This document shows, one piece after another, positions 31,932 to 32,756 of a stretch of 55,038 nucleotides of DNA. How positions within the stretch are numbered: the stretch's first letter is position 1; each line of letters opens with the position of its first letter. The notes beneath the pieces are model-generated. The model was not told where the DNA came from, searched no databases, and saw only the letters and a list, made by a program, of their open reading frames with translations. The stretch comes from an uncultured Oscillospiraceae bacterium (GTDB taxonomy: Bacteria; Bacillota; Clostridia; Oscillospirales; Oscillospiraceae): positions 1 through 55,038 of the forward strand of contig CANQBC010000013.1 of NCBI GenBank assembly GCA_947589225.1. Direction: 5' to 3'. A program made the position numbers and the translations under genes.

Positions 31932-31960
31932 AGAATCGCCTCCCGATGATTGTCAAAAAG

Positions 31961-31972
31961 TGTACTTTCCTG
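31961..31972. repeat. Left arm of the 12-bp inverted repeat
   Basis: TGTACTTTCCTG here is the perfect reverse complement of 32089-32100. The match extends to 15 bases with one mismatch. It lies 29 bases upstream of the ligase start codon. Confidence 0.8.
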
Positions 31973-32030
31973 TAAGCAAAAAAGACCATATACATAATTC
32001 GCTAAAAAAGCAAAAAACTTCAAAATAGCA

Positions 32031-32059
32031 TTGAAATCTCCATTTCTTTGTGCTATACT
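32031..32059 (+). promoter_or_regulatory. Promoter inside the inverted repeats
   Basis: TTGAAA (32031-32036) and TATACT (32054-32059) have a 17-base spacer and a TGC extension before the -10. It points right, away from the ligase gene and into the 3' end of the recombinase gene. If the segment 31961-32100 were inverted, it would read into the ligase, with its -10 about 70 bases from the start codon. Confidence 0.7.
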
Positions 32060-32088
32060 TATTACAATCTTTTGTGTATACTGATTTG

Positions 32089-32100
32089 CAGGAAAGTACA
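32089..32100. repeat. Right arm of the 12-bp inverted repeat
   Basis: CAGGAAAGTACA pairs with 31961-31972. It also forms part of a local dyad, CAGGAA-N8-TTCCTG (32089-32108), the form expected of a serine recombinase crossover site. Confidence 0.8.
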
Positions 32101-32123
32101 AGTTCCTGTGAAATTGCCCCCTG

Positions 32124-32756
32124 TTACAATAACTTGTCATTTTCGTAAATCACTGCCCGGTATCGAAACGTTGAGAGTGCCATGCCGCACTCCTTTGCCG
32201 CAGCCGTGCCGGTGATTTTCTTTGCTTTCCATCGCCGGTAGGCGCTGTGGAAGTTCTCCGGCAATGGTCTGGGCGGTCTTCCGAAGCGTACGCCCCGCGC
32301 CTTTGCCGCCGCGATGCCCTCCGCTTGGCGTTGGCGGATGTTGGCGCGCTCGTTTTCAGCGACAAAAGAGAGGACTTGAAGCACGATGTCGCTCAAAAAC
32401 GTCCCCATCAGGTCTTTCCCACGGCGGGTGTCCAACAGGAGCATATCCAGTACCACGATGTCGATACCTTTTTCTTTAGTGAGAACGCGCCACTGCTCCA
32501 AAATTTCCCCGTAATTCCTGCCCAGACGGTCGATACTCTTGATATAGAGCAGATCGTCTTTTTTCATGCGCCTCACGAGCTTCTTGTACTGTTGGCGGTC
32601 GAAGTCCTTGCCTGACTGCTTGTCAATAAAAATGTTTTCGGGTGGAACGTTCGCTTGACTCATCGCTATTAGCTGCCGATCTTCATTCTGCTCCTTTGTG
32701 CTTACTCGGATATAGCCGTAAACCGCTATATTATCGGCCTCCTTTCTGATGCCCAT
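32124..32756 (-). CDS. Serine recombinase of the resolvase/invertase family
   Basis: A 210-residue site-specific recombinase. The catalytic domain starts with [12 protein letters not shown], with the nucleophile Ser19, and continues with [11 protein letters not shown]. The long helix E is near [23 protein letters not shown]-terminal helix-turn-helix covers about residues 175-205 ([19 protein letters not shown]). The size fits small resolvases and invertases such as Hin and TnpR, not large integrases. GGAGG precedes the ATG. It lies directly beside a pair of inverted repeats that enclose a promoter, so an invertase role is plausible. A resolvase left over from a transposon is the alternative. 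Confidence 0.92.

Follow-up and report, generated by a model that had tools for sequence, protein, structure and literature searches.

The locus examined here raises the question of whether a serine recombinase encoded beside an acyl-CoA ligase gene switches that gene on and off by inverting its promoter. It lies in a 55,038-nucleotide stretch of DNA from an uncultured Oscillospiraceae bacterium, referred to here as the window.

The proposed switch locus and its recombinase

On the minus strand, the recombinase gene is followed by 22 bases, a first core, the segment, a second site, the ligase gene, a gene for a 228-amino-acid protein and a hairpin, with the recombinase and ligase genes running in the same direction (Table 1). 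The first core begins 22 nucleotides past the recombinase stop codon, the commonest distance in the family described below being 20 to 21. An original prediction had described a 12-bp inverted repeat enclosing a promoter, and the sequence bears this description out: the arms at 31961-31972 and 32089-32100 are perfect and 116 bases apart, their 15-bp extension (31961-31975 and 32086-32100) is identical at 14 of 15 positions, and a dyad, CAGGAA-N8-TTCCTG, was found at 32089-32108. The predicted sigma-A promoter was likewise located as claimed, with a -35 element at 32031-32036, a 17-base spacer and a -10 element at 32054-32059; the recombinase gene adjoins the segment, and the ligase ATG at 31931 follows GGGAGG and is separated from the arm by 29 bases. 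By arithmetic, the assignment of the sequence as shown to the OFF state was also right, as was the calculation that inversion would place the -10 element 70 bases from the ATG. The inner half-sites of the two sites match at 9 of 10 positions, and inverted sites flanking a predicted promoter upstream of a gene, a defining feature of an invertible-promoter switch, are found here. The second gene of the proposed operon had been said to encode a surface protein; a hydrophobic N-terminal stretch can be made out by eye, but there was no Pfam or NCBIfam match at an E value of 0.001, and membrane anchoring is a fair guess only. A hairpin with a perfect 13-bp stem at 32800-32844 lies upstream of the recombinase gene; among 263 loci searched, this stem was found as an exact 13-mer only in loci of the same genome.

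Table 1. Positions of the proposed switch locus features in the window
Feature	Positions	Strand	Basis or remark
Small serine recombinase, proposed invertase, 210 aa	32124..32756	-	PF00239, 7e-28
Recombination site adjoining recombinase, 26 bp	32086..32111		Core TTGTAC on minus strand
Recombination site adjoining ligase, 26 bp	31950..31975		Core GTGTAC at 31960-31965
Predicted invertible segment, core to core, 142 bp	31960..32101		Family lengths, paired cores
Predicted sigma-A promoter, TTGAAA-17-TGC-TATACT	32031..32059	+	Faces recombinase (OFF)
Acyl-CoA ligase (AMP-binding enzyme), 572 aa, proposed regulated gene	30213..31931	-	PF00501, 9e-61; PF13193, 5e-14
228-aa protein, hydrophobic N-terminus, second gene of proposed operon	29472..30158	-	Open reading frame, without family match
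Terminator-like hairpin and T run after the operon	29363..29391	-	Sequence
Cassette-holding stretch between p148 and the pot operon	29281..33031		Comparison with genus relatives

The repeat alone is weak evidence, since three 12-bp inverted repeats with a span of 60 to 320 occur in the window and 1.4 are expected (maximum of 4 in 60 block-wise shuffles), while a 12-bp repeat arose in 4 of 2,000 shuffles of its own 231-bp region. Two further short-span 12-bp inverted repeats, at 50309-50577 and 50618-50683, are within chance expectation. Comparison with relatives, and not the repeat, makes a strong case.

The nearest solved relatives of the recombinase by sequence are Sin, the gamma-delta and Tn3 resolvases and DNA-invertase chains in the PDB. 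As for the C-terminal helix-turn-helix DNA-binding domain expected of such enzymes, the alignment to chains 3uj3 and 4m6f, which we take to be Gin, extends to residues 196 to 197, and there is no separate Pfam domain. Residues Ser19, Arg17, Arg77 and Arg80 presumably align with the active site of the family, in which R17 and S19 are conserved in 116 of 117 members and D76, R77 and R80 in all 117. The marks of a small serine recombinase, namely a PF00239 domain, an active-site serine and arginines and a length of about 180 to 210 amino acids, are all found. A master invertase of the Mpi type was considered and rejected, as NF009949 is the best NCBIfam invertase match but scores 51.9 bits against a cutoff of 272. 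Mpi of Bacteroides fragilis acts on many distant segments, whereas a search of the window's own genome with one pattern for such arms found only the window locus.

Related loci carry promoter segments in both orientations

Recombinase matches at an E value of 1e-20 were present in 60 of 149 relatives, and at 1e-60 in 126 of 400 genomes of the family and 99 of 394 of the order, with the window's own genome counted in each case. A scan of genome contigs yielded at least 580 related stretches, of which 80 were kept; 16 loci from viral contigs and 80 further stretches, picked from the better-matching places, were added. A recombinase match was held by 252 of 261 loci, which merged to 222 distinct ones, and 202 of these entered an inverted-repeat test, 20 being excluded for having fewer than 250 bases downstream or an N. 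Repeat scores of at least 13 were reached by 88 of the 202 loci (0.17% of 606 shuffles) and scores of at least 11 by 105 (2.8% of the shuffles), and 85 of those 105 loci have a GTGTAC-type core. In 84 of the 85, the first core starts 2 to 65 bases after the stop codon, mostly 20 or 21. A separate rule, based on the core, found paired GTGTAC-type sites just downstream of the recombinase at 107 of the 201 testable loci, against a single one of 603 shuffles. The remaining 94 recombinase relatives do not satisfy this rule, so the recombinase can occur without a recognizable segment and the family is wider than the cassette as defined.

A promoter scan that was blind to position called a strand in 93 of 119 segments: the promoter faces the recombinase (OFF) in 77 and the next gene (ON) in 16, with 26 undecided. 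The ON set includes L058, in which a high-scoring promoter match lies elsewhere and which may be OFF. The distance from the end of the -10 element to the downstream core is 30 to 34 or 39 to 45 bp in 76 of the 77 OFF and 14 of the 16 ON segments, whereas 595 shuffled segments gave 81 promoter calls, 11 of them inside these distance windows. The distance windows were chosen on the first 83 segments, which come from the 85 cored loci without L116 (span of 64) and L029 (truncated recombinase match); of 36 later segments, some already known from a coarser listing, 28 were called, 27 of them with distances inside these windows. The predicted promoter has a fixed, mirror-symmetric position in both orientations. 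The window segment (L133) is typical of the family in its length of 142 bp, its OFF orientation, its -35 element at offset 71 and its tail, from the end of the -10 element to the end of the core, of 42 bp; the tail measures 41 to 43 bp in 55 of the 77 OFF segments.

Comparing homologous loci for flipped segments had been named beforehand as a test of the original prediction, and the prediction survived it. Among 4,027 length-compatible segment pairs, 22 were alike in the same orientation and 6 were alike when flipped. The segment of L084 is 86 and 83% identical to those of L086 and L090 when flipped and 52% identical when compared directly, while the downstream cargo DNA is 91 and 88% identical. 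The outer flanks of L084 and L086 are nearly equal, and their sequences diverge just inward of GTGTAC, a point that fits a crossover in the core, as would be expected. The other flipped pairs are L023 and L200 (two loci of one genome), L217 and L220, L186 and L188, and L020 and L081, and every flipped pair joins different loci or species rather than two states of one locus in one strain. Both orientations therefore occur among homologous loci, with the window locus known in one; no second assembly of the window's species was found for comparing orientation. Downstream DNA is short in 20 loci, and in three of these (L098, L022 and L031) the contig breaks off at the inner edge of an apparent first arm; their cores are atypical, and a second arm is not seen. 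Such a stop is suggestive, being what assemblies do where two orientations diverge. The signal is weak, however, because some contigs break off immediately before the recombinase gene as well, and contig ends, judged by eye, are not clearly commoner downstream than upstream of it. Taken together, the fixed architecture, the mirror-image promoter placement and the flipped homologous pairs strongly support the reading of the window segment as an invertible promoter.

The segments also differ in length by regular steps. Among 117 of the 119 segments (two of 234 to 235 bp were omitted), lengths are 110 to 111 bp in 4, 119 to 123 in 34, 130 to 134 in 12, 140 to 145 in 58, 152 to 155 in 8 and 166 in 1, with clusters near 111, 121, 132, 143 and 153 bp. 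With 121.3 bp taken as a base and 10.7 bp as the step, 102 of the 117 lengths deviate from a step by no more than 1.6 bp, compared with 30% expected, and the same holds for 30 of the 35 segments that only the core rule had identified; for both sets, helical classes and tolerances were chosen after the lengths had been seen. On the recombinase tree, length class changes at least 35 times, compared with a mean of 52 and a minimum of 43 in 200 label shuffles, so length class is also partly inherited. Among 58 disjoint closest pairs, all 19 that differ by at least 4 bp differ by 9 to 12, 20 to 22 or 32 to 33 bp; given these whole-turn differences and the repeated changes on the tree, relatedness alone does not explain the steps. 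Read in the promoter's direction, most of the variation precedes the -35 element (offsets of about 40, 50, 61, 72, 82, 92 and 103). We read the steps, with less certainty, as the result of selection that keeps the two sites in helical register on a short loop; the promoter may also be in register, either because this is required or by inheritance. Helical phasing has been demonstrated experimentally for the Hin enhancer, according to the parts of that report that we consulted (PMC3798978).

Cargo genes, a sigma-28-like branch and mobility

In 113 of the 119 loci, no more than 350 bases separate the second site from the start of an open reading frame of at least 60 codons; the longest such frame was called as cargo, a choice that will be wrong in some cases. 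These downstream genes vary widely and include methylases, surface-type proteins, CsrA and TnpB-like proteins, so that many other kinds of gene occupy the position of the ligase. Among the best 25 of 96 Pfam families in the 113 cargos are the Eco57I methylase (7), LRR_5 (6), AMP-binding (5), OrfB/TnpB-like (5), C5 methylase (4), acyltransferase (4), CsrA (3) and SPFH (2) families, and the best 25 of 84 PADLOC models are mostly methyltransferases and Cas12f-like. By eye, single loci with cargos resembling DNA methylases, restriction helicases or Eco57I are L084, L086, L090, L065, L078, L100, L071, L097, L113, L008, L074 and L104, implying phase-variable restriction or methylation.

The link to a ligase, which the original prediction held to be unusual, turns out not to be a lone oddity. 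Besides the window, complete ligase cassettes are present in L137 and L138 (one genome of the same genus) and L205 (same family), all four in the OFF orientation; the five AMP-binding cargos are these four ligases and one other, by eye perhaps L166. The segments of L137, L138 and L205 are 94 to 96% alike, so they are not three independent cases. Their ligases are 30 to 40% identical to that of the window, which belongs to a TGYPSIDxPW subfamily, and the N terminus TGYPSID-PWLKYY is common to all. A likely fifth ligase cassette is L048, where the promoter faces the gene (ON) and the contig ends 12 codons into a gene starting, as translated by eye, MSHITGYPSVDL. A ligase gene followed by a gene for a small membrane-type protein, again by eye, is also found in L138 and L312, and in L138 an acyltransferase gene (PF01553) comes next, an order that suggests a role in lipid acylation. 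Close orthologues of the window ligase are rare, occurring in 3 of 199 genomes at an E value of 1e-130 (own genome included) among the matches listed, which do not include the ligases of G021. TGYPSID-type ligases also occur where no switch was found, some of them in tandem. For 50 entries of ligases other than that of the window, some loci being entered twice and many not being of the TGYPS type, no exact core pair or recombinase was found in the flanks examined, so ligases of this family do not invariably come with the switch; the exact core pattern misses the TTGTAC core of the window and yields a spurious 122-bp pair there. The window's genome encodes a second acyl-CoA ligase of the TGYPSIDKPW type (L310, G000:C16:2832-4520), upstream of which no invertible promoter was found.

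A TTAA-N15-GCCGATAA type pattern, which we take to represent a sigma-28-like promoter and which was drafted after some segments had been inspected, matched 10 of the 119 segments. While the match in L063 is probably due to chance, the other nine (L023, L200, L217, L220, L156, L179, L207, L209 and L213) are segments of about 121 bp before CsrA or TnpB-like genes, with an offset of 50 to 51 in eight and 39 in L209, and with the two orientations represented by five and four segments. The RuvC motifs of the TnpB-like cargos look degraded by eye. The recombinases of L200, L217, L220, L156, L179, L207, L209 and L213 are 67 to 79% identical to that of the window. An IS607-type transposase was dropped by judgment as an explanation, as sigma-28-like invertons precede the TnpB-like cargos, which fit the published description of csrA-tldR loci. 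In the parts of that work that we consulted, hin genes are located upstream of csrA-tldR loci of Flavonifractor plautii and relatives, and inversions of about 120 bp with a FliA-dependent promoter distinguish Flavonifractor plautii loci (PMC13418256). The CsrA and TnpB-like loci of our family fit this account, matched by description and not by sequence. Common to both are a recombinase directly upstream, an inversion of about 120 bp and a promoter inside; however, the csrA-tldR loci combine a FliA promoter with a flagellar regulator as cargo, while the window combines a sigma-A promoter and a 142-bp segment with an acyl-CoA ligase. The window locus does not itself belong to that hin group, with which it shares a related recombinase and sites. 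If the recombinase family is the same, that report independently supports inversion.

The cassette was very probably inserted at a variable place. Of 31 genus genomes with a p148 match, the neighborhood was compared in eight, and six of them retain, completely or partly, the order ftsZ, p148, potCD, potB, potA, rluD; G009 has no ftsZ match beside p148, and G021 has no potCD on the stretch examined. In G011 and G024, only about 110 to 125 bp separate p148 and potCD and the cassette is absent there, while in G001, G002, G009, G012 and G018 a potA-like ABC gene lies between the two; it is this variable interval that makes an insertion very probable. In the window, PotC-like permease and PotD-like binding protein are fused in one 669-amino-acid spermidine/putrescine protein (33032-35041). 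Near p148 in G009, where the cassette is absent, a different serine recombinase, 37% identical, is encoded (L264, G009:C7, 14900-15481). The cassettes of L063 and L062, found in Lactonifactor longoviformis and Ruminococcus turbiniformis, show no differences over the part compared, which is evidence of transfer and points to a recent event. No plasmid origin was matched at an E value of 1e-50, and the phage comparison gave two 63% matches.

A proposed switch, its alternatives and its meaning

We consider it highly likely that the window locus is a self-contained phase-variation cassette, in which the recombinase would flip the promoter segment and thereby switch the ligase operon. From the comparisons above, we infer that the window recombinase catalyzes this reaction, that inversion takes place at the window locus and that the promoter is active. 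The recombinase would bind the two 26-bp sites flanking the segment, cut at the GTGTAC-type core and invert the DNA between. In the OFF state, the sigma-A promoter would fire away from the ligase, antisense into the recombinase gene; after inversion, its -10 element would end 70 bases before the ATG, and the ligase and 228-amino-acid protein genes would be transcribed up to the terminator. With less certainty, synapsis on a short, stiff DNA loop may need both sites in register, which would account for whole-turn length steps. It is similarly conceivable that antisense or convergent transcription from the OFF-facing promoter holds the recombinase in check and so favors OFF. The ground for this idea is geometry, as the promoter points into the recombinase gene with scant space left for a terminator, and 77 OFF segments stand against 16 ON segments; such an excess would equally arise if expression of the cargo were selected against.

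Operators commonly take the form of dyads next to a promoter, and the window locus is seen in one orientation only, so the repeats might instead serve as operators where the recombinase, or some other protein, binds and represses the enclosed promoter, with no inversion at all. We regard this as very improbable, as homologous segments are flipped while their flanks keep their order, the promoter takes mirror-image places in ON and OFF loci, and inversions of about 120 bp are in print for the csrA-tldR branch, in the parts consulted (PMC13418256). Somewhat more credible, yet still improbable, is a system that once inverted and was locked in the OFF state by decay of one of its sites or of its recombinase, leaving the ligase silent or driven by read-through from the recombinase gene. 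The right core does read TTGTAC and not GTGTAC, and most called segments of the family are OFF (77 of 93), but the recombinase frame is intact with conserved active-site residues, the inner half-sites still match at 9 of 10 positions, the altered core base lies outside the presumed central dinucleotide and L069 also has a TTGTAC core.

The least probable reading takes the enzyme to be a resolvase or integrase of a mobile island and the repeats to be its end or resolution sites. The absence of the locus at the same place in G011 and G024, the identical stretches in Lactonifactor and Ruminococcus and the closest PDB relatives, Sin and gamma-delta resolvases, would all agree with an island. However, the sites enclose a promoter segment and not an island, their inverted arrangement leads to inversion and not excision, and the cargo beyond the second site varies widely.

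The fimE-fimS-fimA region of E. coli has the same order of recombinase gene, invertible promoter and target gene, and its promoter also faces the recombinase gene in the OFF state; it differs in relying on tyrosine recombinases with host bending proteins and in a segment about twice as long. Invertible promoters of gut bacteria were reportedly found from sequencing reads by Jiang and colleagues in 2019. The Hin gene lies inside its invertible segment, whereas the window recombinase gene lies outside a segment of only 142 bp in all. Hin and hix of Salmonella otherwise likewise comprise a serine recombinase that inverts a segment between inverted sites and switches a promoter, in a reaction regulated, according to the parts consulted, by an enhancer that binds Fis and lies some 100 bp from hixL (PMC3798978). 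A study of gut invertons, as far as its consulted parts go, also found invertible promoters of gut bacteria from reads and tied the main Clostridia group (139) to a tyrosine recombinase, a different class (PMC11892184). The csrA-tldR branch is thus already known, from a paper whose consulted parts mention neither the wider family nor the length steps (PMC13418256). Among the papers listed from an incompletely covered literature, titles and abstract openings pointed to no other work on these two subjects or on the ligase cassette.

The comparisons indicate that the predicted window switch is one of a large family of plug-in switches in gut Clostridia. A broader and tentative reading, which we consider possible though short of likely, is that these are widespread, transferable mini-loop switches that need no remote enhancer and whose sites and promoter stay in register through whole-turn changes, in which antisense transcription in the OFF state would repress the recombinase and make OFF self-stabilizing and ON transient, and into which sigma-A or sigma-28 promoters and unrelated genes are swapped. 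The cassette, consisting of a recombinase gene, about 20 bases, a GTGTAC site, a promoter segment, a second site and a gene, predicts phase-variable genes of Clostridia from assemblies, among them genes for DNA methylases, surface-type proteins and lipid-type enzymes. Because its lengths step, natural variants could serve to test how a serine recombinase synapse is arranged on a DNA loop that falls short of the persistence length, and a promoter aimed into the recombinase gene would be a simple, testable reason for the prevalence of the OFF state.
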